From contig CATOTG010000009.1 of assembly GCA_951813015.1 (NCBI GenBank), positions 1 through 64,000 on the forward strand: a stretch of 64,000 nt of DNA, written 5' to 3'. The notes beneath the pieces were generated by a model. It was not told the origin of the DNA. It made no database searches and was given only the letters and a program-made list of their open reading frames with translations. The position numbers and the translations under genes were made by a program. This document shows, piece after piece, positions 3,749 through 44,119 of this stretch. The DNA comes from an uncultured Thermoanaerobaculia bacterium. Lineage in GTDB: Bacteria > Acidobacteriota > Thermoanaerobaculia > Multivoradales > Multivoraceae. The number at the start of each line of letters is the position of its first letter. Positions within the stretch are counted from its first letter, which is position 1.

Positions 3749-5606
3749 GTGGCTGGGACGAAGCAACCCGTGGGGCGCCGTTCGCCAGCGCGCGCGCGGC
3801 ATCGGATGATGGCGGGTCCGCTGGCGACGGCCTGCATCCTGTTGAGCCTCCAGTCCGACACACCGCTGACGGCTCAGCAGGTGGCAGCCGGGAGCGAACG
3901 GGTATCGGGTCCGGTGTTCATCGAGACCGTCGAAGTCGAGGTCATCGACATAGACGTCTACGTCACGGACGCCGACGGTCAGCCCGTGCACGGCTTGACG
4001 CTGGACGACTTCGAACTGCTGGTGGACGATCGGCGGGTGGCGATCAGCAACTTCTACGCGGTCGAAGAGCGTGGCGACGAGCTGTGGGTGCGACGTGGCG
4101 GCGCCGGCGCCGAACCCCTGGCCGCGCCCGCGCTTGACGATCCGCTGGCGCCGGGCCTCCCCGGGCGGGCGCGCCCGGTCGTGTCGCCCGAACAGGCGCT
4201 CCACGTTGTGGTCTACATCGACAACCTGAACCTGACGCCGTTCAACCGGAACCGGGTGCTGCGCGAACTGCGGAGCTTCATCCGCGAGCAGCTCCAGCCC
4301 GAAGACAACGTGATGCTGGTCAGTTACAACCGCTCCATTGACCTCTTGATGCCGTTCACGAACGATCGCGATAAGTTGAACCGGGCCCTGCTGGAACTCG
4401 AGGAGACCACCGGGAACCGCGTGCATCGCAACAACGAACGCCGCGACATCGTCGCGCTGATCAACGACGTGAACCTGGAGACGGCGGGCCGCCGGGGGAG
4501 CGAGCAGTTCCAACAGGGTGTGCGCGAAGGCCGGGTCATCGGCGGTCCTGTCGGCCTGGCGCGGAACCAGTTGATCGCCTACGCCGGTTCGGTGCGCAAC
4601 GATACCCACCTGTCCATCGACGGCCTCGGCAGCTTGGTGGAGAACCTGTCCGGGTTGCCAGGGCGCAAAGCGGTCGTCTACGTGGCCGAGGGTCTGCCGA
4701 TGATCGCCGCCGAGGACATGTTCCACTTCATCCGCGATGCCTACGAGGACGCGGTCTCGCTGGTGGAGATGACGTCCTACGACATGTCGCGGCGCTTCCA
4801 GCAGCTCGCGGCGGCTGCAAACGCGAACCGGACGAGCTTCTACACCATCGATGCCCGGGGTCTGACCGTGTACTCCCAGGGCACCGTGGAACAGCACGCT
4901 GCCGGCTTGCCGGGACAAGGGTTGCTCATCGACCAGATCAGGGTGACCAACCTGCAGAGCCCGCTCCGCCTGATGGCGCGGGAGACGGGCGGTCGTTCGA
5001 TCTTCAATGCGAACCGCGTGATGCCCGACCTTCTGAAGATCGCCCGCGACTTCCGCAACTACTACTCGCTCGGGTACATGCCCGCGAGCGCCGGCGCCGG
5101 TCGCCTGCACACGATCGAAGTCCGCCTGAAGAACCGACCTCGGGGTGTCGACGTGAACTACCGACGCGGCTATCGCACCAAGACGGTCGAGTCGCGCATG
5201 GCGAGGGCACACTCTCTGCTCTCCATCTGAACGTGTACGAGAACCGCTGGGCGTCAGGGTGCAGAATCTGTCTTTGAAGCGGCGATCGGATGGGCACTAC
5301 GACGTGCGACTGGTCGTCGATGTCGCCTGGGATGAGTTGGTGCTGGTTCCGCGAGAAGGCGTGCACCACGGCCGGATCCGGCTCTGGTTGGCGGCCAAGG
5401 ACGAAAAGGACCGTGCGACCGAGCCCAGGCTCAGCGAGTTGAACATCGCGGTGCCGCAGGATCGCCTGGCCGAGATCGAAGGCCGCAGATGGCGGTATGG
5501 CCTGGAGCTGACGATGGAAGCCGGATACCACGACATCGGGATCGGGCTGCGGGATGACGTCGGAGGCCGTCAGTCGTTCCTGCGCCATGGGGTGAACGTC
5601 CGATGA
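3749..5606 (+). CDS. VWFA-related acidobacterial domain protein (frameshift near 5225)
   Basis: From GTG 3749 the product has a signal-like segment ending ...TPLTAQQ, a VIDIDVYVTDADGQPVHGLT strand typical of the N-terminal domain of this family, and a von Willebrand A-like region (VVYIDNLNLTPFNRNRVL; later GRKAVVYVAEGLPM and YYSLGYMPASAG). The frame ends at 5230, but the next frame immediately continues with the usual C-terminal domain (EPLGVRVQNLSLKRRSDG up to 5606), so one base is gained or lost near 5225. These proteins are exported and thought to bind or scaffold other proteins; no enzyme activity is known. It follows the sulfatase-TPR gene by 9 bases, suggesting one operon. Confidence 0.85.
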
Positions 5607-5719: not shown

Positions 5720-8273
5720 ATGACTCCATCCATGCAAGGGACGCGGGCCAATCGTCCCTCTTCACTTTGTTCCGGTCGGCTTTGGCCAGTTCTGCCGGCC
5801 GTAGTACTTCTCCTGTTCGCAGCGGCTGGCGCGAGCGGACAGCGACTGCTTGATCTGGGTCCCGCCATCGAGGTTGCCCCGACAGCTTCGGAGGGTCTTG
5901 AGACCTTCGCGGTCGAACTGGACATCGATTTCGTTCGCTCCGCTCCGCCGCTCGTGGAACTCCCCACACCGGACGGACGGGTTCTCGCCGCGGAGATGAC
6001 GGTCTTCGAGGACCGCGGCGCTGGCGACGCCATGTGGGCGGGTACTCTTCCCGGCGCCGCGTACGAGAGCGTCGTGTTCACGGTCAAGGACGGCTATCTG
6101 GCTGGGCGCTTCGGTGAGCCGGGAGGCGCCAAGTACCTGATCAGCGCCGGTCCCGACGGCCGCGGTCAGATCGTCGATACGTCCGTCCGCGCGCCGGATT
6201 CCGAGGAGCGGACCTGTCCCGGCGGCGTGGTTCCGCCCGGGGAGTCTCCCGCCCGGCTGCCTCTGGCGCAGCGTGACGGACCTCCGGGCGGCGTGGCGTC
6301 CGAGTCGAACCACGATGTGCTCGACATCCTGGCCGTCTACACGCCCGAATCCGAGGAGCGGTGGAGCCGCCGCAATCTGACGCCGGGAGCGGCGATTCAA
6401 GGGTCCATGGACTACCTGGCCCAGGTGTTTCGGAACGGTCGGCTGGGTGTGACGCCGAACCTGGTGCACTTCGAGGAGGCGCCGCCACTCTACGGAGAAC
6501 ACGAACCGCAGGACGGCGAGGACAGCGAGTGGTCCTGCAGCCACATTCTTGGCCATATGCCTGGGGATCCGGACCTGGCGCGGCTCCGGGCGGAGCACGG
6601 CGCGGACATGGTCCACCTGTTCGTCTGGGGCGCCCAGGGTTGCAGCGGCATCGCCTACCTCCTGACCAAGGGGGTTTCCGCTCAGTCGTTTTCGGGCGCG
6701 GCCTTCGGTCTGACCTTGCCCCGCGGCGACTACGACGGAACGTTTGCCCACGAGATCGGTCACAACATGGGCGCCAACCATGATCCGCAGAACGTGAGCA
6801 TTCGCGACAGGACCTTTGAACAGCATCGCAACGAGGTTGCCGTCTATCCCTACGCCTACGGCCACACGGACTTCGCGCCGGTACCCAACATCGATACGAT
6901 CATGAGTTACGGCTCTGGCCGGGTCGAGCCCTACTTCTCGACGGTGCGGTTCCGGCCGCGGGGCTGGAACATCGGCATCGCCGGAGAGCGCGAGAACGAG
7001 CGGGCAATGCAACAGACGATCCACCTTGCCGTCCAGTACAGCGACTTCATCGGCAGTACACCGGACCCGGAACCTCCTCCTCCTCCTCCCGGTGACGTGC
7101 CGACGGCGCCGGGCAATCTGGCCGCCACGCCGACCGGCGCCACCAGCGTCCGTTTGACCTGGTCGGACGAGTCCGACAACGAGAACGGCTTCGAGGTGCA
7201 GTATCGCCCGGCCGGCGGCCGCTGGCAGGCGGCCACGAGGTTGCCGGCGAACACGACATCGGCTGATGTGACCGGACTGGATGCCGGCGGCCGCTACGAG
7301 TTTCGCGTGCGGGCCTACAACCGCGCCGGCGGCGCGAACAGCGGCGTCGTAACCGTCGTGCTGGGGGCGGCGGAGTACACGGACTGCGTGCCCTCGGCGC
7401 CGCTGATCGTCTTCGAGCACGGCTACAAGGTGAGCATGTGCATCGAGTACGAGAAGGACGGTGAGATGGTCCAGGCCGACGCGGTCGACTACGGACTCGC
7501 ATCGCGCGAGTCGGGGCTGCTCTATTTCTTCGACCGCGACAACTCCGAAGTGCTGGTCAAGGTGCTTGATGCCTGCAGCGTCAACGGGTACCGGTGGGTG
7601 TTCGTGGCGCCGGTGACCACGCTGGCGTTCAACCTGTACGTCGATGAGACGGCCACGGGGGGAGCGATGGCCCCACCGGAACCCTCGCGGCGGTGCGACG
7701 GCGACGACGAAGAGCGACATCAGGGCGTTCCCCTGCGGAGCTGCTGCGTCATCGACGGCCGTTGCGGATGGTGTTGGCAGTATTCGCGGAGTCGACCTCG
7801 TCGATGTGGGCTTCCCGGCGTTGCCGGCTCCACCGACGTCGCCGGCGCGTGTTGAACCGATGTCGGCCCGGCCGCCGGTCACCGTCTCTCTGCCGGTCGC
7901 CGCCGGGGGAGAGGCGGAGTGCGAGCCGCAGCCGGTGAAGACGCTTCGCGGCGGCTACACCGTCAACATGTGCGTCGAGCACCTGCGGGACGGCGAGACG
8001 ATCGTCGAGGAGGTTGAGGACTACGAACTGGACTCCGAGCAGTCGGCGATCCTCTACTTCTTCGATCGCGGCAACGCCGAGGTGCTGATCAAGGTACTGG
8101 ATGGCTGCGGAGTCAACGGTTACCGGTGGGTGTTCGTGGCGCCGGTAACGACGCTGGCGTTCAATCTGTCGATCGAGCCTCCCGGCGGCGGCCAGGCCTG
8201 GACTCACGAGAACCGTCTCAACCAGACCGCCGCGGCAAAGAGCGACATCACGGCGTTCGCCTGCAGCCAGTAG
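5720..8273 (+). CDS. Secreted reprolysin-like zinc metalloprotease with Fn3 and two WFFD-type C-terminal repeats (frameshift near 7660)
   Basis: A signal peptide (about residues 25-41) precedes a propeptide-like region. The catalytic domain carries the metzincin zinc site HEIGHNMGANHD (first His about residue 344) and a downstream Met-turn, TIMSYGSG. A proline-rich linker (PDPEPPPPPPG) leads to a fibronectin type III domain (APGNLAATPTGATSVRLTWS). Then come two copies of a Cys-containing module with the core YFFDRxNxEVLxKVLDxC and VNGYRWVFVAP. The frame breaks in a run of six G near 7658 inside the end of copy 1 and continues one frame over to 8273; read through, about 850 residues. The homopolymer break suggests a sequence error. 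The same module occurs twice in the metalloprotease at 40388. Extracellular protease; substrate unknown. Confidence 0.85.
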
Positions 8274-8439: not shown

Positions 8440-10610
8440 TTACATTACGCGGAGCAACGTCGAGGACGAGTGCTGGCCGTTGGCGCCGTCGCTCACGGTG
8501 ACGACCAGGATGTAGTCGCCGCTGGCAAGCTTCTTTCCGGCCACGAACGTCCCTGACAACTGCGAGACGCCTGATCCGGCCCGGGCGCCGGGCGACAGGA
8601 CAACCTCGCCGCCCTCGACCACCGGCTCGCCGTTCGGGCGGAGCACCTGCGTTCGGACGGACACGGCCCCCGCGCCGAGATTCGTGGCGGCGAGGCTGAT
8701 CGGCGTTTCGCCACCGGCGGTAACCACCGGCCTGGCGGCAGGGATGAACGGATTGCCGTCCATCAGGAACGGGAAGCCGACGTCCAGCCGCTGCTCCGAT
8801 TCCTCCTCGCGGAGCAGAACCCACTTTTGATGCGGTTCCGGGAACAGCGGCGGCTGGAGCGTCGGCGTCTCGCCCGGCACCGTGAGCACGGTTGTCGCGA
8901 GAGCCCGGCGTCCGGTGGCGTCGTTGCGGATCAGTACGCGAACGGAGTAGTCGCCGGGGTCCAGATCGAAATGGCCCCAGTACTTGATCCCGCTCTGGCG
9001 GATCGCGGGGCCGGCCTGGGCCGTGTCCAGGCCCATGGAGCGGACGAAGAAGTCCCGCACGATCCCGAGGTCGTCCAGGGCGTACGCGTAGATTTGCAAG
9101 GGCAGGGTTCCGCCCTGGAGGCCGGCCAGAAGATCCTCGCCCCGCGCCTCCACGAGCACCGGTGCGTAGGCCTTGCCGCTGTCGGCGGGAAGGCGGCGGC
9201 GAGCACGGAGGTGTCGATCTCGCCCGCTTCCACTCCTCCCATGACCTGCTGCGCTGAGGTCAGAGCCCGTTCGAAGGGGTTGGTCTGTTCATAGGGCTTC
9301 GGGGCGTAGTAGCCGGGTCGGTGGACGACCCGTGTTCCCCGGGGAGCCTTCTTGAGCCGTACCCGCAGTTTGCGGAAGCGGCCGTCGTTCTTCAGGTCCC
9401 TGGGGTAGAAGGAGAGCAGGTAGGTGACACTGGTCTGCTCCAGCATGTCGGACATCGCTTCACCCAGGTCGCTGAAGTTGGCGAACAGTTCGCCGCCCGT
9501 GTCGTTCGCCATCAGAGATAACGAGGCCCTGTTGCTCTGGCCCTGGGTCTGGATCTGGCCGCTCACGTCCACAGCCTGGATCGTGCAGTTCGCCTCGCGG
9601 AAGCGCTCCAGCATGTTGTTCACCGACCTCTGGGCGGCGGTACTGCCGAAGAGTTCTTCGTTGTCCACCTGTTCGAAGTTGCCGTCTGCCAGCCTCTGCT
9701 GACGGTCCAGGATCTCCTCCTGCTGCTCCAGCGTCACGCCCTGTTGACCGACGAGGATGGAGTCGTCGAAGCCCTCGGACAGGAAGACGACGTGCTTGCG
9801 CCCCTGAATGGACTGCATCCAATTGGCCAGTTCGCTCATCCCGGACGCCAGCGCGTCGACCTCGCTTGCCGCGCGTCCGCGCGCCGCGGCGTCTTGCAGC
9901 ACCTGCAACTGCTGTTGTTGTTGTTGCAGCTCGGCCTGCACATCGAAGGGCCGCTCGCTGGAACCGTCGCCGATGTCTGAGCTCGTGGGGAGTTCGCCGC
10001 TCAGATCGCCGATCACGAGACCCAGGGGGTCGCGGATCACGTCGGACTCTCTTCCGCCGAATCCGAGGCTGCGGATCGCCTCGCGGATCTGACTGCGGTC
10101 CGAGGTGAAGCCGAGCACGAGGCGGGGCCGGTTGGCGAACACCGCGAGGGCCACCAGGTCTGTGGGGTGCAGTTCCCGCAGGACGAGGTCGGCGGCGGCC
10201 TGTTGGGCGCGGCCGACCGCATCGGGCGGGGTGAAGAAGAGATCGAACAACAGCAGAAAGTGCCGCCGTGCGGCGACCGGTACCGGTTCCTCGGTCGCCT
10301 TCCCTTCGATGGTCGCCAGATCGACGACGTCGAAGCCGACGATCTCGACCGTCTTCCGGTTGTCCTGGAGTTCGAAGTCGGCGGCCGTGAGATCGCGGAG
10401 GGGGGCGCCGGCACGGCTGACCTGCACCGGCACTTCAACCATGAAGACTGTGGTCGTGTCGCTGAATTCGGCCTGTGCCTGCCGGGCGCTGCGCCCGCGT
10501 TGGGCGTCGGCCGCAGCCGCTGAGAGCAGCAGTGCGACGGCGCAGAGAAATGCTCCCGTTCGGCCGGCTGGATGCGAGATCTGTTGATCGAGAGGTCGGT
10601 GATCGTCCAT
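8440..10610 (-). CDS. VWFA-related acidobacterial domain protein (frameshift near 9187)
   Basis: Start chosen at ATG 10610 because GGGAGAG lies just upstream; the frame is open a little further. The signal peptide ends ...SAAAADAQ. The N-terminal domain reads VFMVEVPVQVSRAGAPLRDLT, and the VWA-like part includes HFLLLFDLFFTPPDAVGRAQ, GRKHVVFLSEGFDDS and YLLSFYPRDLKNDGRF. A glutamine run encoded by CAA/CAG repeats sits near 9915-9932. The frame breaks near 9187, one base short in the FPADSGKAYAPVL region, and the C-terminal domain (MLVEARGEDLLAGLQ onward) continues in the next frame to 8440. Read through, about 723 residues, close to its neighbour at 10688. The two minus-strand VWFA genes lie in tandem and likely arose by duplication. 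Confidence 0.85.
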
Positions 10611-10687
10611 CGCAAGCTCTCCCTTGATTCTTCGGTGCAAAGATGTCGCCTTGTTGTCCCGGCGACGCGTCGACTCGGCCGCCCCGG

Positions 10688-12922
10688 TCAGTTCAGCACC
10701 TTCACGGGGATCGAGTTGGCGGATCTGGCCTGCGTTGCCTGATTGACAACCGCGACGCTCAGAGTGTAGTCGCCCGGCTCGAGACCGGTGGGCTGGAAGG
10801 CCGCAATCAGCTTGTCGAGACCGGCGATTCCGGTCACGGTCCGCTCGCGCAGACTGAGCCTGCCCCCGGCCATCGCCTCGCCCTCGAGGTTGGTCACGGT
10901 TGCCTGCAGCGTCAGGTCGCCTGAGCCGAGGTTGTAGCCAACCAGGCAGAGTGCTGCGCCTTCCGGATCATCGGTCAGCGGCAGCAGCGGCACGGCCGAC
11001 GGGACATAGGGTTCTCCGTTCACCGTGAACGGATAGACCGTCGTTCTGGCGTACTGGTCGCCGGCCTGCTCGCGGACCAGGAACCAGCTTCCCGGCTCCT
11101 CGAGGAAGAAAGGCGGCAGGAGAACCGGCTGCCCGTTTGTGTACATGGGGACCTCCAACTCGACTGTCGCGACGCCGGTCCTGCCGGAGACGGCGTTGCG
11201 GACGAGGACCCTCACGAGGTAGGCGCCGGGGCCGAGGTTCAGGTGGCCGTAGTACTTCAGACCGGTGTTGGCGAAGGTATCCTCACGCCCGGCCAGGTCG
11301 AGGGTCACGACCCTGCTGAAGAAATCGCGCATCTGGGCCGTGTCGTCGGTGACGTAGGCGTAGATCTCGACGGGAAGATGCCCGTTCTCATGCCCTTGCA
11401 GCAGCTCGTTGCCGCCGACCTCGATGATCACGGGTACATACGCTTCGGCTTCAGCGGCCTGGAACGGCGCCGCCAACACGTCGACATGCAGGCCGTCCGT
11501 CTCCGTTGCGGTGGCGATCAGGTCCGAGGCGAGGAGGCGCTTTTCCATCGGGTGCAGGTCCCCGAATGGCCGGGGGGTGACGTACCCCATGCGGTGCGAG
11601 ACCTGTGACCCCCGGGGCGCTCTGGAGCGTACCGAAAGCCGGTGCCGCTCGCCCGGCGGTCCCGGTGCGGAGGGCTCGAAGGACAACAGGTACGTGACGT
11701 TGGAGGATTCCAGTACTGCGCGGAGCTCTTTGCCGAAGTCGTTGGCGTCTTCGTGGAATCCTCCGCCGGTCTCGTTGGAGATGTAGAAGAGCGCGTCCCG
11801 CCCAACGATGCGCGCCCGGTTCTCTTCCGGGAGGTCCGCCCGCAGTCCCGAGATGTCGACCGCGTGGATCACGGCGTTGGCGCGGCCGAACTCGCGCACC
11901 ATCTGATTGATCAGGACCTGGAGTTGCGTGTTGCCGTAGCGGTCGTCCGTGTCGACCTCGGCGTACCGGCCGTCCTGGATGGCCCGGATCTCACGTTGCA
12001 TGTCTTCGTCGAAGAAGTCCGGCTGGCGACCGAAGAGCAGTCGGCCGTCGAATCCCTCCGAGAACAGGATGACATGCTTGCGGCCCTCGATGCTGCCAAG
12101 AACCTGCGCCATCTTCTGGAGAGTGTCGGCCCAACTCGAGATTCGGCCACGGGCGAAGCTCTTCTCGTATCTGGCCATCTGATTGCCGATGATCCGCAGG
12201 TAGCTGCTGACGCTGCGTTCCATCTCGCTGATGCTCTGGTTCACGCCGCCCGCGTCCAGGGAGGACGCGATACCGGGGCCCGGGGCGTCGATCAGGAAGC
12301 CGAGAGGATCCCTGGTGACGAGCTTCAGGAGACGCGGATTGCCGAGCGTGGCGATGGCCCGGGCCAACTGCGTCCTGTCCGGCGTGAACGTGACCAGGAG
12401 TTGGGACCCGGACTCGGCGGTATGCACGGCCACGGCGCCAAGATCGGTGGGATGCATCTCGTTCAGGACGAAGTCCTGCGCGGCGACGCGCGCCCGCGCA
12501 ACCGACGTGGGCGTCGAGAACGTGAGGTCGAACAGCAGCAGGAAGTGCCGCCGAACGGCCGGCGGCAGACCATGGCCCGCATCCATCACGCGTCGTTCGT
12601 CCGGCGCGAGAAGATCGAGGTCCACGACCTGGAAGCCGGACAACTCCTGAAGCCGGCCCTCGTCGAGGATCTGGAAGTCCTCAATGGTCAGGCCGCGCAC
12701 CGGCTCGCCGTTCCTGGTGACCACGTTGACCGGTACCTGGACTTCGAAGACGGAGGTTTCTTCGTCGAACTGCCGCAGATTCTCGGGGTCTTGTGCCGGG
12801 ACCGGCAAGACGGCGGAGAACGCCGCGATCATGGCGGGAACGACGACGCCCGCGAGTCGGCCGCCTCGCGGATGTCCCCGACCGGGGAGGCGGCGGGCGG
12901 CAGACGACGTTTCGGGTTTCAT
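10688..12922 (-). CDS. VWFA-related acidobacterial domain protein, intact
   Basis: An intact 744-residue frame from ATG 12922 (the open frame extends 12 codons further upstream). It has a signal peptide ending near PVPAQDPEN, then the paired beta and VWA-like regions of the family: VFEVQVPVNVVTRNGEPVRG, HFLLLFDLTFSTPTSVARAR, GRKHVILFSEGFDGRLLFGR and YLLSFEPSAPGPPGERHRL. The C-terminal domain ends with YTLSVAVVNQATQARSANSI. It serves as the intact reference for the frameshifted paralogue downstream. The family is largely confined to Acidobacteria and is exported; molecular role unknown. The 80-bp gap to the downstream gene allows co-transcription. Confidence 0.9.
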   Translation of the reverse strand: MKPETSSAARRLPGRGHPRGGRLAGVVVPAMIAAFSAVLPVPAQDPENLRQFDEETSVFEVQVPVNVVTRNGEPVRGLTIEDFQILDEGRLQELSGFQVVDLDLLAPDERRVMDAGHGLPPAVRRHFLLLFDLTFSTPTSVARARVAAQDFVLNEMHPTDLGAVAVHTAESGSQLLVTFTPDRTQLARAIATLGNPRLLKLVTRDPLGFLIDAPGPGIASSLDAGGVNQSISEMERSVSSYLRIIGNQMARYEKSFARGRISSWADTLQKMAQVLGSIEGRKHVILFSEGFDGRLLFGRQPDFFDEDMQREIRAIQDGRYAEVDTDDRYGNTQLQVLINQMVREFGRANAVIHAVDISGLRADLPEENRARIVGRDALFYISNETGGGFHEDANDFGKELRAVLESSNVTYLLSFEPSAPGPPGERHRLSVRSRAPRGSQVSHRMGYVTPRPFGDLHPMEKRLLASDLIATATETDGLHVDVLAAPFQAAEAEAYVPVIIEVGGNELLQGHENGHLPVEIYAYVTDDTAQMRDFFSRVVTLDLAGREDTFANTGLKYYGHLNLGPGAYLVRVLVRNAVSGRTGVATVELEVPMYTNGQPVLLPPFFLEEPGSWFLVREQAGDQYARTTVYPFTVNGEPYVPSAVPLLPLTDDPEGAALCLVGYNLGSGDLTLQATVTNLEGEAMAGGRLSLRERTVTGIAGLDKLIAAFQPTGLEPGDYTLSVAVVNQATQARSANSIPVKVLN

Positions 12923-13040
12923 GACCTTGGCTGTCCTGATCCCGGGGCAGCGCGACAAGGCTAGCAGCAGAGAGTGGTTGCTTCTCCCGGGCTGTTGCCG
13001 CTGGCCGGGAGAGCGGCGCCAGCAGGCCGCCCGGCCGATG

Positions 13041-14210
13041 TCAGGGCGGCCCCCGTTCGATCAGTGCCGCGTACTTGCGTGCTTCTTCGTGCGTTGCATC
13101 GAGGCGCAGGGCCCGCTCCACGTGGTGCCTTGCTTCGCGCACCCGGCCGGTCGCGATGTAGACCCGGACGAGGCCGACATGGACTTCCGGAAGTTCGGAG
13201 TCGGCGCGAAAGGCCCTGCGCATGTACTCCAGCGCCAGGGCCGAATCGCCGGCTGCCAGAGCGGCGTCGCCCCGGTAGACGTAGAAGAACGGGCTCGCCA
13301 TGTTCAGGTCTTCGAGGACGTCGAGAAGCTCGCCGGCGCGGCCATGTCGGCCCTGAACCTGGTAGGAGCGGACCAGGTTCGTCAGCAGAGGAATGCTCTG
13401 CGGATGAAGCTCCAGGCCTTCCTCGTAGACCCGCACAGCTTCGTCGACCTGGTTGCGCCGGAGCAGGAGGATGCCGCGGTTGTTGATCGCCTTGTCGAAG
13501 TCGGGCGCCAGCCGGACGGCGACGTCGAGCCACTTCTCGGCGGCGTCGAGTTCGTTCTCCATCAGGGCCTCCGCCCCCAGGTTGTTGTAGTAGTGGCCGG
13601 CGGCGGCCAGATCGGTGATCGGCTCGAAGTCGCGATAGGACTTGGGGCGGTAGGGAAGAAAGTCGTAGGTCGCCATCTCCCCGTCCACGTACATGCCGGC
13701 GACGATGTGGCCCCGGCTGATCACCACGCCGTCCTGGTAGTTCCAGCGCTGGTAGTCCTCGACCTCGACAAAGAACGGGTTCAGCCGGCGTTCGCGCCCC
13801 ACCGCCACGAACAGGTTGACGAAGGACAGGCAGTTGCCTTGTCCGTAGGTAAACGTCTCGCCAGCTGTGCGGGTCGGTGCAAGGGCGTACTGAAGGTCGA
13901 CCCAGCCGAAGATGAAGTCGAGCACGGCGTCGCGGCGGCGGGTCTCGCTGCCAGCCGGACTGACACGCTCATCGACGGCGGCGCGCAATTCGTCGGTGAC
14001 GGCGAACGGAACGACCACCCCGTCCCTCCAGCCGCCTCCGAGGCGGCGGTCGAACTCGGACGTCAGTAGCTGCCGATCGTCCAGCGGCGCGTAGCCGGCA
14101 CACGCAGCGCCCAAGGTCAGCGCCAACAGGAGCGCGCCTCTCCGCGCCCTGGCTGCGCCGGGAAGCTCGAAGCCTGTCCGATGTCCGTGGGTCCGGAGAG
14201 TCAGGATCAT
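13041..14210 (-). CDS. Lipoprotein with transglutaminase-like domain and TPRs; 5' end taken from an IS
   Basis: A 389-residue product. The lipoprotein signal has lipobox LGAAC (LLLALTLGAACAGYAP). A middle region resembles a transglutaminase-like cysteine peptidase fold, with GQGNCLSFVNLFVAVGRE around the candidate cysteine and GHIVAGMYVDGE around a His. TPR repeats follow to the C-terminus. The first dozen codons, MILTLRTHGHRT, and the GGAGG before them are nearly identical to the start of the IS transposase remnant at 28667, so the translation start appears captured from an IS end. The GGAGG abuts the ATG, so initiation a little downstream is possible. Role unknown; probably a cell-envelope protein. 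Confidence 0.75.
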   Translation of the reverse strand: MILTLRTHGHRTGFELPGAARARRGALLLALTLGAACAGYAPLDDRQLLTSEFDRRLGGGWRDGVVVPFAVTDELRAAVDERVSPAGSETRRRDAVLDFIFGWVDLQYALAPTRTAGETFTYGQGNCLSFVNLFVAVGRERRLNPFFVEVEDYQRWNYQDGVVISRGHIVAGMYVDGEMATYDFLPYRPKSYRDFEPITDLAAAGHYYNNLGAEALMENELDAAEKWLDVAVRLAPDFDKAINNRGILLLRRNQVDEAVRVYEEGLELHPQSIPLLTNLVRSYQVQGRHGRAGELLDVLEDLNMASPFFYVYRGDAALAAGDSALALEYMRRAFRADSELPEVHVGLVRVYIATGRVREARHHVERALRLDATHEEARKYAALIERGPP

Positions 14211-14299
14211 CCTCCGATGATCGCCGATCCCACCCGGCTCACGTTCGCCTCTCGCTGGATTCACCCTCACCGCTCACCCTCACTTCTCGCTGGACAGCA
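14178..14299. mobile_element. Solo IS end (remnant)
   Basis: This stretch matches, in reverse orientation, the left end of the decayed IS at 28580: two CTCGCTGGA motifs 35 bp apart (14251 and 14286), then the GATCATCCTCCGATGATC block and the first codons of the transposase. No rest of the element follows; the sequence continues straight into the lipoprotein gene. Confidence 0.75.
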
Positions 14300-14824
14300 C
14301 CCTGGACAGCTTCAGGTGGACAACCACTCTCCTCTTGATGTACGATGCCTTCATTCAACAGGTTGATCCGCCGGATTCCTGTCAGGGTTTGGCCTGACGG
14401 GAGGTCCTTCGTCAGTCACATGTTGACAGCAACGGCGGTTTGATTCCAGGACAAGCCGGTCATGTGTCAGTCGGACCACGAGCCAATGAAGGTCACCGGT
14501 GCGGCGGCAACAGCCAGAGGTTATTCAAAATCATGGACAGCGTACCGTCTCTTGGATGGGTGGAGGATTCGGGTTCGCGCCAAAATGGCGCGGCTCGACC
14601 TTCTTCCACACGCGGGTTCGCATGGAGACAGGGTTTTGTCCGATTGGCCGAACTGGCCGGATCCTGGTCGCTTTGGCACAAGCCTTGCGGCGTCTCAAGA
14701 TCGTCAGCAGAGCCGAGAGGCTCTCGTCAAACTGCGGGAGGTTGCATGCGGCGTCGCGCAAGCCAGCGCGGCGCGGACGTGAATCTCCCGTACCAACACT
14801 CACTTCGGAGGGAGTATTGAACGC
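14300..14824. other. Long upstream region of the TonB receptor gene
   Basis: No convincing coding region on either strand. It contains the sigma-54-type promoter at 14673-14688 and, directly before the receptor ATG, the Shine-Dalgarno-like GGAGGGAG at about 14808-14815. The first part adjoins the IS end and may include IS-derived sequence. Confidence 0.5.
14673..14688 (+). promoter_or_regulatory. Sigma-54 (-24/-12) promoter match
   Basis: TTGGCACAAGCCTTGC has the invariant GG and GC separated by exactly ten bases, plus the preferred TGGCAC and TTGC blocks. It points at the TonB receptor, whose ATG is 137 bases downstream. An RpoN activator would be needed; none is encoded in the window. Confidence 0.6.
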
Positions 14825-17728
14825 ATGAGCAGACGCACCGTTTCTACGTTCGGCGTCATCCTTTTGCTGCTCGTTGGCGGCATCGCCTGGGGTCAGCAGA
14901 CCACCGGCAATCTCTACGGCACGGTGGTCGACGAGTCCGGCGCCGCCTTGCCGGGCGTCAAGGTCACCGTGACCGGCATCGGCGCCGCGCGCGAGCAGTT
15001 CACCGATGAGGGCGGGAACTTCCGGTTCCCCGCGCTCGACCCGGGCTTTTACGACGTAGCTGCCGAGCTTGATGGCTTCGGCGGACTGGAGTATCCGGAT
15101 GTCAGCATTCGTCTGGGGCGCAGCACGGATCTGCCGTTGACCTTGACGGCGGCCCTGGAAGAGACGATCACCGTCACGTCCGAGAGCCCGCTGCTTGACG
15201 AACGCCAGATCAGGCCCGGCACCAACGTCACGCAGGTCGAGTTGGAGAAGATCCCGACCGCACGCGATCCCTGGGCCATCCTGAGCCAGACGCCGGGCGT
15301 CCTCGTGGACCGGATCAACGTGGCCGGCAGCGAATCCGGCCAGCAGTCCGTCTTCAGGGCTCAGGGCGTTTCGAGCAGCCAGAACACCTTCCAGCTCGAC
15401 GGCACGGAGATCACCGACATGCGCGCCACCGGCGCGTCGCCGACGTACTACGACTTCGACCAGTTCGCCGAAATGTCGTTCACGACCGGCGGGTCCGACG
15501 TCACGAAGAGCACCTCGGGCGTTGCGGTCAACCTCGTGACGAAACGGGGAACCAACGAGTTCCGCGGTTCGGCTCGCTTCTACAACACTCAGGCCACCGG
15601 CTACTTCGGCGGCCTGCTGGAGGGTGCCGAGCCGAACATCGACAGCCAGCTCAACCAGGCGAATGGCCAGACGGCGCTGCCGGGCGCCCGGGTCCGCAAG
15701 ATCGAGGACTTCGGCTTCGAGGCCGGCGGCGCCGCGATCCAGGACCGCCTGTGGATGTGGGGAAGCTGGGGCCAGCAGGACATCGGCCAGAACAACGCTA
15801 CCGGTACCGCCGACGACACCCTGCTCGAGAACACGGTGATCAAGGTGAACGGCCAGCTATCAAGCGACAACGCGATGGTCGCCTCCTACAACAACGGCGA
15901 CAAGCTGAAGTTCGGTCGTGGTGGAGGGGGCAACCGGCCACCCCCAACGACCTGGAATCAGCGCGGACCGTCGGCCCAGTATCGGCTGGAGGATCAGCAC
16001 ATCTTCTCGCCGAACTTCTACCTCACCGGCGTCTACTCGCATGGCGACTTCGGATTCGCGCTGCTTGCCCGTGGAAACCTGTCGAACCAGAACGGTCTTG
16101 ACCAGGATGCAGTGGATCCAATGCGCGATTTCCCGGTGTGGTACGGCAACTACTTCTCCGGCTCGGCGGCGTCTCCGAACGACCTCTGGCAGGCAGACGC
16201 CAGCTACTTCTTCAGCAGCGGCGCCACGGTCAACCACGAGCTGAAGCTCGGCGGCCGGTTCCGGACCTACGAGAACCGCTCCGCGTTCTACGCCGGGCCC
16301 CGGGATACGTGGCACGAGGCGGGTCGTTCCTGGACCATCTACACTCGGGATGATAAAGGCGCCCTCGCCGCCGACTACAACTCGCTCTACGCGCAGGACA
16401 CGATCACGTTCGGGCGCATGACGCTGAACGTCGGCGCGCGCTGGGACGACCAGGGCGGTGCCAACGGCCAGTACGAGCTGCCCGCACATCCAACGCGCCC
16501 CGACCTGATGCCGGCGATCACCTTCGAGGGATCCGAAGCGGGCTTCGGCTGGACGTCGATCGTGCCGCGGCTCGGGGCGACCTACGCTCTTGGCGAAGGC
16601 CGCACCACGTTGCTGCGCGCGAGCCTTTCCCAGTTCGCCAACCAGTTGCCCACCAACACGGTGACCCGGAACTCGCCTCTCGGCTACAACTATGTCTACG
16701 TCGTCTGCGACGACCTGAGCGTCGCGGACCAGACCTGCTACTCGCCGGGCAATGTCCTGTTCACCAACCTGGATCTCGACGATCCGTTCAACATTCTTGA
16801 CACGACGGATCCGAACTTCGATCCGCCGGTCACGACCGAGCTCATCCTCGGGGTTGAGCACGAGTTCATGCCGGAGCTCGTCGCCGGATTCGGCATCACG
16901 ATGCGGAACGTGGACGACATCGCGGAAGAAGTCGGTTACGTCGAGGATGAGGACGGCAACGTGCGTCTGCCGCGCCGTTCGGACTTCATGCTTTCCCATG
17001 TCGCCACCGGCACCGTGCCGCGCGGCAATGGCAGCTACCGGGTCCAGGTGTACGACCTGGTCGATGGGGTCGACTTCACGGGCGGTGACCACCTGATGAA
17101 CGGTGTCCGCTCCCGCGACTTCCTCGGTTACAACGTCAGCCTCACGAAGCGGCTGTCGCACGGTTGGATGGCTCGTGGCTTTTTCCAGTACGGCGATGCC
17201 GAATGGAATGTGCCCGACGAGTACTACAACCACTTCAGCCGGAATGCCGGCCGCGGCGGCGGAGACGTGGACGGGCAGATCTACATGCAGAGATCGACCG
17301 GCTCCGGCAAGGGCCAGCGCTACCTGCAGTCGACCTGGTCGTACAATCTGAACGGCATGTATCAGGTTGCCCCCGACAGGGGTTGGGGTTTCAATCTGTC
17401 GGCCAACCTGACCGGTCGCGAGGGTTCCCCCGCTGCCTTCTACGTAACCGAAGACGTCCCGAACCTGGAAAGTGCGAGCCTCAACGTCGTTGAGGACCTC
17501 GGTTCCGTACGACTGCCTGACATCCACACGATGGACGTGCGGATCGAGAAGGAGTTCGCAGTGTCGGGTCCGATGAACCTGACGTTCGGCATCGACATCT
17601 TCAACGTGATGAACAGAGGTACGGCTCTGTCCTGGATCGACGGTATTGGCGGATCCAACGCTGGCAACCTGGACGATCACATCGCACCGCGCGTGTATCG
17701 CCTTGGTGTCCGTCTGAGCTGGCGATAG
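14825..17728 (+). CDS. TonB-dependent receptor, Oar-like, with carboxypeptidase-regulatory domain
   Basis: A 967-residue outer-membrane receptor. The signal peptide ends at GGIAWGQQ. Residues about 25-110 form a carboxypeptidase regulatory-like domain (GNLYGTVVDESGAALPGVKV). A plug domain follows (ITVTSESPLLDERQIRPGTN, IPTARDPWAILSQTPGV), then a long beta-barrel ending YRLGVRLSWR. Such receptors import large or polymeric nutrients using TonB energy. A Shine-Dalgarno GGAGGGAG lies about ten bases upstream of the ATG. It stands alone between a sigma-54 promoter match and a strong terminator, so it appears to be a separately regulated single-gene unit. Substrate unknown. Confidence 0.92.
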   Translation: MSRRTVSTFGVILLLLVGGIAWGQQTTGNLYGTVVDESGAALPGVKVTVTGIGAAREQFTDEGGNFRFPALDPGFYDVAAELDGFGGLEYPDVSIRLGRSTDLPLTLTAALEETITVTSESPLLDERQIRPGTNVTQVELEKIPTARDPWAILSQTPGVLVDRINVAGSESGQQSVFRAQGVSSSQNTFQLDGTEITDMRATGASPTYYDFDQFAEMSFTTGGSDVTKSTSGVAVNLVTKRGTNEFRGSARFYNTQATGYFGGLLEGAEPNIDSQLNQANGQTALPGARVRKIEDFGFEAGGAAIQDRLWMWGSWGQQDIGQNNATGTADDTLLENTVIKVNGQLSSDNAMVASYNNGDKLKFGRGGGGNRPPPTTWNQRGPSAQYRLEDQHIFSPNFYLTGVYSHGDFGFALLARGNLSNQNGLDQDAVDPMRDFPVWYGNYFSGSAASPNDLWQADASYFFSSGATVNHELKLGGRFRTYENRSAFYAGPRDTWHEAGRSWTIYTRDDKGALAADYNSLYAQDTITFGRMTLNVGARWDDQGGANGQYELPAHPTRPDLMPAITFEGSEAGFGWTSIVPRLGATYALGEGRTTLLRASLSQFANQLPTNTVTRNSPLGYNYVYVVCDDLSVADQTCYSPGNVLFTNLDLDDPFNILDTTDPNFDPPVTTELILGVEHEFMPELVAGFGITMRNVDDIAEEVGYVEDEDGNVRLPRRSDFMLSHVATGTVPRGNGSYRVQVYDLVDGVDFTGGDHLMNGVRSRDFLGYNVSLTKRLSHGWMARGFFQYGDAEWNVPDEYYNHFSRNAGRGGGDVDGQIYMQRSTGSGKGQRYLQSTWSYNLNGMYQVAPDRGWGFNLSANLTGREGSPAAFYVTEDVPNLESASLNVVEDLGSVRLPDIHTMDVRIEKEFAVSGPMNLTFGIDIFNVMNRGTALSWIDGIGGSNAGNLDDHIAPRVYRLGVRLSWR

Positions 17729-40338: not shown

Positions 40339-40370
40339 TCTTGACCGATCCGTTCCTCGTTTGACCCCTT

Positions 40371-40414
40371 CTGTGGAGGGAAGTGACTTGAAGAGTGTAA
40401 GAGCGTGGCGCCTT
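40371..40414 (+). repeat. 44-bp dispersed repeat, copy 1
   Basis: This segment, starting CTGTGGAGGGAAGTGA, recurs at 55147-55190 with three mismatches. Here it supplies the GGAGGG ribosome site and the TTG start of the LRR metalloprotease gene. Confidence 0.8.
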
Positions 40415-43400
40415 GCAGGTGGCGGTCGTCGAGGGCCTTGTGGTCTTCTTCGGCGGTTGGGATTGGCCGGGGCTTTGCTGGCGGTGTCGGTGACCGCGCC
40501 GGCTGGCGGCATCATCTACGTCGCGCCCAGCGACGAGGTGATGGTGGACCGGACACCGATCATCGTCTTCGGAGAGGTGCGGTCGGTGATGGCGACCGCC
40601 GGAGCGCGGTTCCCGTCCACGGACGCGCTGTTCGAGGTGGAGGCGGTGTTGAAGGGGAACGTCCCGGGCGGCACGGTCCTGGTCCGGCAGCCGGGCGGCG
40701 CGAGCGAGGACGGCGTCGTCTCGGTCATCTACGGCCTGCCGATGTTGACGGCCGGCGACCGGTTGCTGCTGTTCCTCGAAGAGGTTCCGGAAGCCGTCGG
40801 CGACGGCGTCTACCGCACCGTGGAGTTGTCGCTGGGCATGTTCTTCGAGTCGTCGTCGGCCGCGGGCAATCTGCTCAGGCGCGAGGCGGCACTCCATCAA
40901 GCGGCGCCGGGGTCGAACGACGGAGCGGACTCCGATCCGTCGAGTCATTTGCCCCGCAACAGTGGCGACTTTCGCCGCTGGATCGCTGACCGCGTGCGCG
41001 GCGTGGAGCGAGAGGCGGACTACTTCGCCGTCGCCGCGCCGGCCGACAGTCCGGTCGCCCTGGTTTCTCCGTACCGCTTCCTCACAAGTCCTTCCAGGTG
41101 CGCGGTACCCGACCTGCGGATCCGGTGGCGGCAGTTCGACCGCGGCAACGGGGTCGGGTTCACAATCCAGGCGGACGGGCAGCCCGGCGTCCCGGGCGGC
41201 GGAATCGCCGAGGTGGTGCGCGCGATGCGGGCCTGGAACGACGATCCGGCGAGCAGCGTTCAACTCGAGAATCTGGGCACGACGAACGCAAGGGCCGAAA
41301 TTGCCCGGAGTGACGGTGTGAACTCGATCCTCTTCGAGGACCCGTACGACGTGCTTGCAGGCTACTTCGAGGCCAGCAGGGGAGGCGTTCTGGCCGTCGC
41401 CCTGGTGCGCTTTTCTTGTGCGGAGGAGTACAGGCACAAGATCCCTGGCAATACACCGCACGAAGGGCTTCCGATCCTGGAAGCCGACATCCTGACCCAG
41501 GACGGCTACGGTCCGAGTTGGGCGGCCCGGACCCTGAACGCCAGCAAGGCGCATGAGCATGTGATCGCTCACGAACTGGGCCATGCACTCGGCCTGGCTC
41601 ACTCCTGCGCTCAGGGATTTGCCGATACCTGCAGCGCGCTGACCGCGGACTCCCTGATGAAGGCGACAGCCAGCGGCAAGCAAATCTACCGTGGCGGTGT
41701 GCCCGCGGCCGACGACCTGGCCGCGGTGCGCTTTCTCTATCCTGCGCACGGCGGACCGGCCAGCCCGTCCGATCTGACCGCCAGGACGATCGATCAACAC
41801 AGCATCGAACTCGGTTGGAAGGACAACTCGAGTGACGAAACGGCCTTCGACATCTTCGAGCGGTCGATCAACGAGACGGACTTCAGGCCGATTGCCAGCG
41901 TTGGGAGCAACACGACCTCGTTCGTCGTCGAGGGACTGCCGCCGGCGACCTACCGTGCCTACCGGGTGGCCTCGAGCAGCGCGGGTGGACGTTCGTCGGC
42001 GACCAGTGAAGCCAGCGCGGTCACACTCGGCGAGGTACGCAAGTGCGTCGAGGACGACCGGACACTTTGCCTGAATGAAGGCAGGTTCCAGGTGACCGCG
42101 GAGTGGGCGACCGCGTCCGGGGCCACCGGTCCGGGCGGCTCGGTGACCCTGACGAAGGATACCGGGGCCTTCTGGTTCTTCGATCGCGCCAACGTCGAAA
42201 TGGTGGTCAAGCTGCTCGACGGATGCGCCCTGAACGAGCACTTCTGGGTCTTCTCGGGTGGTCTGACGGACACCGAGGTTCAGTTGACGGTGATCGATAC
42301 CGAGACTGGCTTGGCCCGGACCTGGTTCAATCCGGAAGGAACGCTCCTGCGACCGGTTCAGGACAGCGAGGCCTTCGAGACCTGCAGCCCCGACACGAGC
42401 GTCGCCGCGGCGCGGAGCGCCGGCCCCGCGAAACCCTCGCCGTTGGCCAGACGCCCGCTGGATCCCGACCGGGACGTCCGACTCGCCCTGGAGCGCTACC
42501 GCGCCGCTCGGGTCGAGACTCCCGTGGCCGCCCCCGGCGGGTGCACCGCCGACGAACGGACGCTATGTCTCGAGAACGGCCGCTTTCGCGTCCGCCTCGA
42601 CTGGGAAACCGAAGACGAGAGGACGGGCGCAGGGAAGGCGATGCCGCTTACCGGCGACACCGGCCTGTTCTGGTTCTTCGATCCCGCCAACATCGAGATC
42701 GTGATCAAGGTGCTCGACGGCTGTGCGGTGAACGGCAACCGATGGGTGTTCGCCGGGGGCCTGACGAACGTGGCGGTCGAGATGACCGTGGTCGATTCCC
42801 AGACCGGCGCCGCGAGAACCTACGGCAACCGTCTGGGCAGTCCGTTCCGCCCGATCAAGGACACAACGACCTTCGCGTGCTCCGCTACGGACGATCACGG
42901 CGGCACGCGGGACGAGGCGACCGATATCCCGCTGGAAGCTTCGCGGGCCGGCTTTCTGGACGCTGCCGACGCCGACTTCTTCCTCTTCCGGATTCCGCGT
43001 GCCGGCAGGGTGCAGCTGCGGACGACGGGCTCGACCGATACCGAGGGCGTCCTGATGGATGCCGCTGGGACGATTCTGGCCAGCGACTCGGACTCGGGCG
43101 CCGAGGAGAACTTCCGTCTTGTCGCATCGGTGGGCCCGGGTACCTACTACGTACGCGTTACGGGGAAGGACACGGAAGCGACCGGCGCCTACGAGCTGCA
43201 CACCGGGTTTGCGGTCAGGGCCGCCATCTCGAAGCGGGACCGGGATGCGTTGATCGCGCTCTACCGGGCGACCGGTGGCGCGAACTGGACGAACAAGGAG
43301 AACTGGCTGAGCAACCGTCCGCTCGACGAGTGGTACGGCGTGACGACGGGCGAGGGCGGCCGCGTGACCTGGGTGGAGTTGAGCGACAACGGGCTGACGG

Positions 43401-44090
43401 GCAGCTTGCCCGCAGCAATCGGCGATCTGGATCAACTCCAGGTTCTGTTACTCGACGGGAACGAGTTGACCGGGCCGATTCCGACCGACGTGGGCAAACT
43501 TGGCGAACTCGTGTATCTGGTTCTGTCGTCGAACGAGTTGACCGGCGGAATACCGTCCGAACTGGCCAGCCTCCGCGACCTGAGGTACCTCGTTCTGCAC
43601 TTCAACCAACTGACCGGCCGAATCCCGCCGGAACTGGGGCGCCTGCGCGACCTGATCTTCCTGCGGCTGGGCTTCAACAACCTGACCGGCGGGATTCCCG
43701 CCTCGTTCCGTAGCCTGAACCGGCTCACCTTCCTTGACGTGCGGGATAATCAGTTGACCGGTTCGATTCCTGCCTGGTTGGGAGATCTGACGGCCATGAG
43801 CGCGCTCTGGCTCGGAGATAACGGGTTCTCGGGCGGCATACCGCCGGCACTGGGGAACCTGACCGACCTGGTGTCATTGCGTCTCTGGTCAAACGACCTG
43901 ACGGGCCCGGTGCCGCCCGAGATCGGTCGCCTCACGGCGTTGCAGGACCTGTACGTCCACAGTACGAACCTGTCGGGCGCGTTGCCCGACGAACTGCTCG
44001 ATATCGGTGGACTCGACTTCTTCTGGTTCCACTTCAGTGAGCTGTGCGCACCGTCGACCGCCGCCTTCGACGAGTGGCTCGAGGGCATCG

Positions 44091-44119
<29 letters not shown>
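40388..44119 (+). CDS. Secreted zinc metalloprotease with Fn3, two WFFD-type repeats, PPC-like and LRR domains
   Basis: A 1243-residue protein from TTG 40388 (GGAGGG seven bases upstream; frame open to TTG 40361). The signal segment is GLAGALLAVSVTAPAGG. The metzincin-type zinc site HELGHALGLAH is at about residue 395. Then come a fibronectin III domain (PSDLTARTIDQHSIELGWKD), two Cys-bearing modules with FWFFDRANVEMVVKLLDGC and FWFFDPANIEIVIKVLDGC, a pre-peptidase C-terminal-like domain (DAADADFFLFRIPRAGRVQL) and about eight plant-type LRRs (LSSNELTGGIPSELASLRDL). It probably acts outside the cell as an adhesive protease. It sits between the glycerate kinase and enolase genes of module 2, where module 1 has nothing. 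Confidence 0.88.

Follow-up and report, generated by a model that had tools for sequence, protein, structure and literature searches.

Thermoanaerobaculia and their relatives appear to append an unnamed all-beta module of about 113 residues to otherwise unrelated exoproteins, either as one copy or as a two-copy array of old origin. The module occurs four times in the 64,000-nucleotide stretch of DNA analysed here (the window) and belongs to a family far larger than these four copies. At about even chances, it is a non-catalytic attachment module that would retain exoproteins on a shared ligand of the envelope or matrix.

Four module copies in two metzincin proteins

The first host protein, host A, consists of a signal peptide, an M12B-like metzincin domain, a fibronectin type III (fn3) domain and two modules, and is divided between two open frames. 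The first frame (711 aa; 5720–7855, + strand) holds the signal peptide, the reprolysin-like metzincin domain (6503–6955, +; motif HEIGHNMGANHD in the translation; Reprolysin_4, E 1.6e-11), the fn3 domain (7106–7342, +; 1.3e-14) and most of module copy 1 (7385–7736, +). Inside copy 1, near a run of G at positions 7655–7664, the frame changes, leaving the last third of this copy in another frame. The second frame (7644–8273, +) carries the end of copy 1 and the whole of copy 2 (7920–8264, +). In nine congeneric loci, the relatives of host A are single open frames of 833–1186 aa with two intact modules, and the frame change in copy 1 is therefore attributed to an assembly or sequence error or to a recent mutation. 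The frames flanking host A, at 3749–5230 (+) and 8931–10640 (−), have translations similar to each other, which by eye resemble VWA-like acidobacterial exported proteins.

Host B (1252 aa; 40361–44119, +) has a signal-peptide-like N-terminus. It contains a matrixin-like (M10) metzincin domain (41306–41614, +) with HELGHALGLAH in the translation and a Peptidase_M10 match of 1.7e-4, under the Pfam cut-off, and an fn3 domain (41762–42016, +) whose match of 3e-4 is likewise under that cut-off. Copy 3 (42044–42385, +) and copy 4 (42539–42880, +) are followed by a PPC domain (PF04151; 42968–43165, +; 5.1e-6) and C-terminal leucine-rich repeats (43373–44017, +; LRR_1, 7.3e-25), so that 412 residues lie downstream of the last module. 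The same architecture recurs in seven relatives (L056–L062).

A preliminary description of this DNA had counted four copies in two unrelated metalloproteases. The count stands: all four copies lie on the + strand, and their alignment spans the whole length of the module, beyond the core motif. The hosts, on the other hand, are not unrelated as proteases. Both are metzincins with HExxHxxGxxH and a Met-turn, one M12B-like and the other M10-like, and fall into one clan. The C-terminal placement given in that description applies to host A, in which copy 2 ends two residues before the stop, and not to host B, in which the PPC domain and leucine-rich repeats come after the modules. The early cysteine pair is present, but it is not a single feature: in type II modules (copies 1 and 2) it is formed by C4 and a cysteine of the next strand, and in type I modules (copies 3 and 4) by C4 and the cysteine of ‘LCL’. 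Copy 2 thus combines C4–C24 with a pair joining the core to the C-terminal end. The final cysteine, described as lying about 60 residues on, is found 52 residues after the core cysteine.

Family identity, fold and cysteine pairing

The module was described as matching no named family, and this was borne out. A Pfam-A scan of 45 modules from the genome of the window (the own genome) and the 86 modules of a wider alignment (A4) yields scattered, weak, single-member matches only, and in an NCBIfam scan of hosts A and B and of A4 no model exceeds its curated cut-off across the module. A literature search found no description of the domain. Among solved structures, sequence search yields only partial matches, including chance ones to engineered repeat proteins.

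AlphaFold2 models were obtained for both cysteine types. The type I model, from copy 4 (42533–42880, 86 rows), reaches a pLDDT of 97.0 and a pTM of 0.89; the type II model, from copy 2 (7911–8264, 30 rows), reaches 91.9 and 0.85. Both adopt one predicted all-beta fold, with ten short strands in the same order and the same single short helix. For type I, the best Foldseek match has an E of 0.076, with TM of at most 0.37 among the matches listed, and VIA gives a Z of 5.9 (72 residues, 3.7 Å). The corresponding values for type II are an E of 0.18 and a Z of 4.9. Beta-meander and Ig-like folds match at a middling level only and were rejected as relatives. A missing PDB neighbour of a predicted model is not proof of a new fold.

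Across 164 non-redundant module copies, the cysteines covary. The second early cysteine occupies either C12 or C24 (127 versus 30 copies), with no copy having both (P about 2e-26). C64 and C116 behave as a unit: both are present in 155 copies and neither in 8, the single exception resembling an alignment shift (P about 8e-13). This covariation supports two predicted disulfides, an alternative first one between C4 and either C12 or C24, and a second between C64 and C116. Of the anticipated beta-sandwich with two disulfides, the all-beta character and the disulfides are thus supported; neither model has a clear PDB match by which the fold could be called a classical sandwich. Residues N53, E55, K59, N67 and W71 are strongly conserved across divergent hosts.

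Accessory modules of exoproteins are an already known kind. The alternative disulfide, the copy number, the fusion, described below, to lectins diversified by a diversity-generating retroelement (DGR) and the family itself are absent from every library searched.

Distribution of the module

In the own genome (4.32 Mb, 95.6% complete), the parts searched contain 55 module matches in 41 reading frames. With a module HMM from an iterated profile, complete copies score between E 1e-24 and 1e-48, and chance is thereby excluded. The profile search of acidobacterial genomes proposed in the preliminary description accordingly reveals a much larger family. In a sample of the phylum, the module is found in 17 of 149 genomes, and many relatives are without it. 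All six genomes of the same genus in this sample, the own genome included, carry at least 30 copies each, a genome of the same order carries 19, and ten others carry 1–6 each. A search of genome contigs in named records, with eight close module rows as the query, reached 18 other genomes, 17 of which hold 18–78 copies; the remaining one, soil by its title, holds a single copy. The named records with the module are mostly from Acidobacteriota, many of them Thermoanaerobaculia, and a MAG labelled ‘Deltaproteobacteria’ is among the genomes considered for presence outside Acidobacteriota.

Read by name, some carrier records resemble sponge or coral samples. Thermoanaerobaculia of f__UBA5704 have been found in a sponge metagenome (PMC12166358). 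Searches of plasmid and phage proteins with one module as the query gave no match, so that nothing points to carriage on plasmids or phages.

Partners, position and history

The module moves independently, as had been supposed. With the modules set aside, 117 hosts of other genomes fall into 29 mutually unrelated groups by their remaining sequence. Metalloproteases are among the partners, in line with the preliminary description, but the module is not protease-specific. The protease partners, drawn from several clans, include M9 (collagenase), M10, M12B, M14 and trypsin; the oxidoreductases include PQQ dehydrogenase, GSDH and Cu amine oxidase; alkaline phosphatase, sulfatase, GH8, MBL (beta-lactamase-family hydrolases) and spondin-N also occur. 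The module usually follows its partner domain and rarely precedes it, and the linkers ahead of it are flexible Pro-rich segments, fn3, Calx-beta or PKD.

In 29 of 35 own hosts and 106 of 118 other hosts (about 88%), at most 17 residues separate the last module from the stop. The exceptions are host B with its seven relatives, the DGR lectins, in which the module lies near the N-terminus, and L102, L120, L129 and L133. In a crude scan limited to ATG starts and including fragments, a signal peptide is detected in 20 of 41 own module frames, versus 59 of 400 control frames.

Across hosts with two modules, the copies group by position, first with first and second with second. The nearest relative lies within the same protein for only 9 of their 103 modules; recent tandem duplication was rejected on this count, and the two-copy array is therefore old. 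The module also exists by itself. A protein made of a signal peptide and a single module, related to own-genome C1:251349–251687, is encoded at syntenic loci in three genomes (L047:2841–3326, −; L105:5869–6354, +; L126:5827–6345, +), where the neighbouring genes encode an S41 tricorn-like peptidase and a TM7S3/TM198-like membrane protein.

Fusion to DGR-diversified lectins

Several own-genome proteins consist of a signal peptide, the module and an FGE-sulfatase/C-type-lectin domain, the lectin end carrying variable positions. Apart from the lectin, no domain but the module was found in these DGR variable proteins. The template repeat lies at C6:169320–169445 (L152), and ten variable lectin copies are located on contigs C6 and C1 (L135–L144). 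Compared with the template repeat, the ten copies differ at 61% of A, 15% of C, 12% of G and 6% of T positions. Only a remnant of the reverse transcriptase remains beside the template repeat, and no RVT_1 match over the cut-off is seen in the own genome. An RT-like frame with a FADD motif (C2:4735–6246, −; L150) was rejected as the DGR enzyme, its RVT_1 match being weak and partial and its position away from the template repeat.

A congener, G162, carries the same template repeat together with two intact reverse-transcriptase frames (RVT_1, 1.1e-16 and 8.2e-16) and two module–lectin genes. Within its DGR locus (L177; G162:C1:2187000–2206000), the reverse transcriptases are at 6107–7540 and 12568–13824 (both −), the template repeats (TR) at 17634–17509 and 6274–6149, and the module–lectin targets at 9449–10723 and 14135–15412 (both −). 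Mismatches between the variable repeat (VR) and TR affect 15 of 32 and 16 of 32 A positions, 1 of 44 and 3 of 47 C positions, and no G or T position. Judged from its sequence, this DGR is apparently intact, comprising reverse transcriptase, TR and module–FGE fusions whose VR differ almost only at template adenines. With all three elements in place, the hypervariable proteins of lectin fold have the module as their constant part.

DGR targets with a C-type-lectin fold are a known kind (PMC5006420, PMC6328139), and the variable proteins characterised in those papers share with the present ones the FGE/CLec C-terminal domain and adenine-specific mutagenesis from a template repeat. They differ in that the constant part here is the new module, and in that only a minority of the module hosts are DGR targets. 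The literature search found no description of the module as a DGR constant part.

M10-like proteins with fn3 and two Cys-less modules adjoin DGR lectin genes at L033:4947–7688 (−), L044:3578–5440 (−) and L177:2920–6744 (−). This neighbourhood of DGR lectin genes and Cys-less-module proteins seems to be conserved.

Proposed role and alternatives

For the attachment role, the following course is envisaged. The module protein would be exported by Sec, as the signal peptides of the crude scan suggest, and its disulfides would form after export. The module may then bind one common partner, in the cell envelope, the capsule or the extracellular matrix, and this binding would keep enzymes and lectins near the cell. 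In favour of this role are the high copy number, the unrelated partners, the flexible linkers ahead of the module, the stand-alone form, the part played in DGR lectins, the single predicted fold of both cysteine types with its disulfide covariation, and the separation of first from second copies. Such a role would require the same acceptor in genomes with one to six copies, which counts against it.

Substrate binding is the other role put forward in the preliminary description, and attachment is provisionally ranked ahead of it. A targeting module would bind an environmental glycan or protein, for instance in the sponge matrix, and bring enzymes to it in the manner of a carbohydrate-binding module. 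The linker and tandem layout is that of enzymes with binding modules, collagenase (M9), sulfatase and GH8 are among the partners, and the fusion to a DGR-diversified lectin-fold domain is in keeping with targeting. Like carbohydrate-binding and fn3-linked accessory modules of exoenzymes, the module is attached by linkers, often repeated and mobile among enzymes; however, it matches no CBM family, and many of its partners do not act on polymers. PQQ dehydrogenase, alkaline phosphatase and amine oxidase have no polymer substrate, and the module core is the same in genomes with soil or groundwater in their record titles. Because several partners have small substrates, a general retention tag is favoured over targeting, which is considered unlikely. 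PPC (PF04151), which adjoins the module in host B, is likewise a non-catalytic beta domain of secreted proteases, but is a separate known family, and the module has no PPC match in Pfam.

The predominance of C-terminal positions, the very diverse cargo and the dozens of copies per genome are also features of a sorting signal at the C-terminus that would direct proteins into a dedicated route of secretion or anchoring. The T9SS C-terminal domain (Por_Secre_tail, TIGR04183) is similarly short, all-beta, placed at the extreme C-terminus of unrelated secreted proteins and present in many copies per genome. The module, however, has no sequence match to it, and also occurs internally (host B and its seven relatives), in tandem, near the N-terminus (DGR lectins) and alone; no hydrophobic segment or basic tail trails it. 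TIGR04183 matches neither the module nor anything in the own genome, while controls were detected. SprA_N, of the T9SS translocon, has no match in the own genome, and the control genomes are likewise without a match. A secretin is present, which is compatible with type II secretion and is not a test of it. A sorting signal is on this evidence improbable. Still less probable is a disulfide-locked stability or folding cap that would shield the exoprotein C-terminus and have no ligand. In its favour, the predicted disulfides clamp both module ends and the position is usually C-terminal; against it, the conservation of N53, E55, K59, N67 and W71 and the stand-alone version suggest a function of the module's own.

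Retention by attachment may be extended to a bolder picture, which is offered tentatively and is rather doubtful: a new fold acting as the shared docking tag of acidobacterial secretomes, through which one envelope or matrix acceptor would display dozens of enzymes, the stand-alone module and DGR-hypervariable lectins on the surface of an animal symbiont. In conclusion, an unnamed domain at 18–78 copies in most genomes checked constitutes a large annotation blind spot in the secreted proteins of acidobacteria, many of which come from samples with sponge or coral names. A name would connect dozens of exoproteins now labelled ‘hypothetical’, and its fusion to DGR-diversified lectins would offer a direct test of the display of variable binding proteins by such symbionts.
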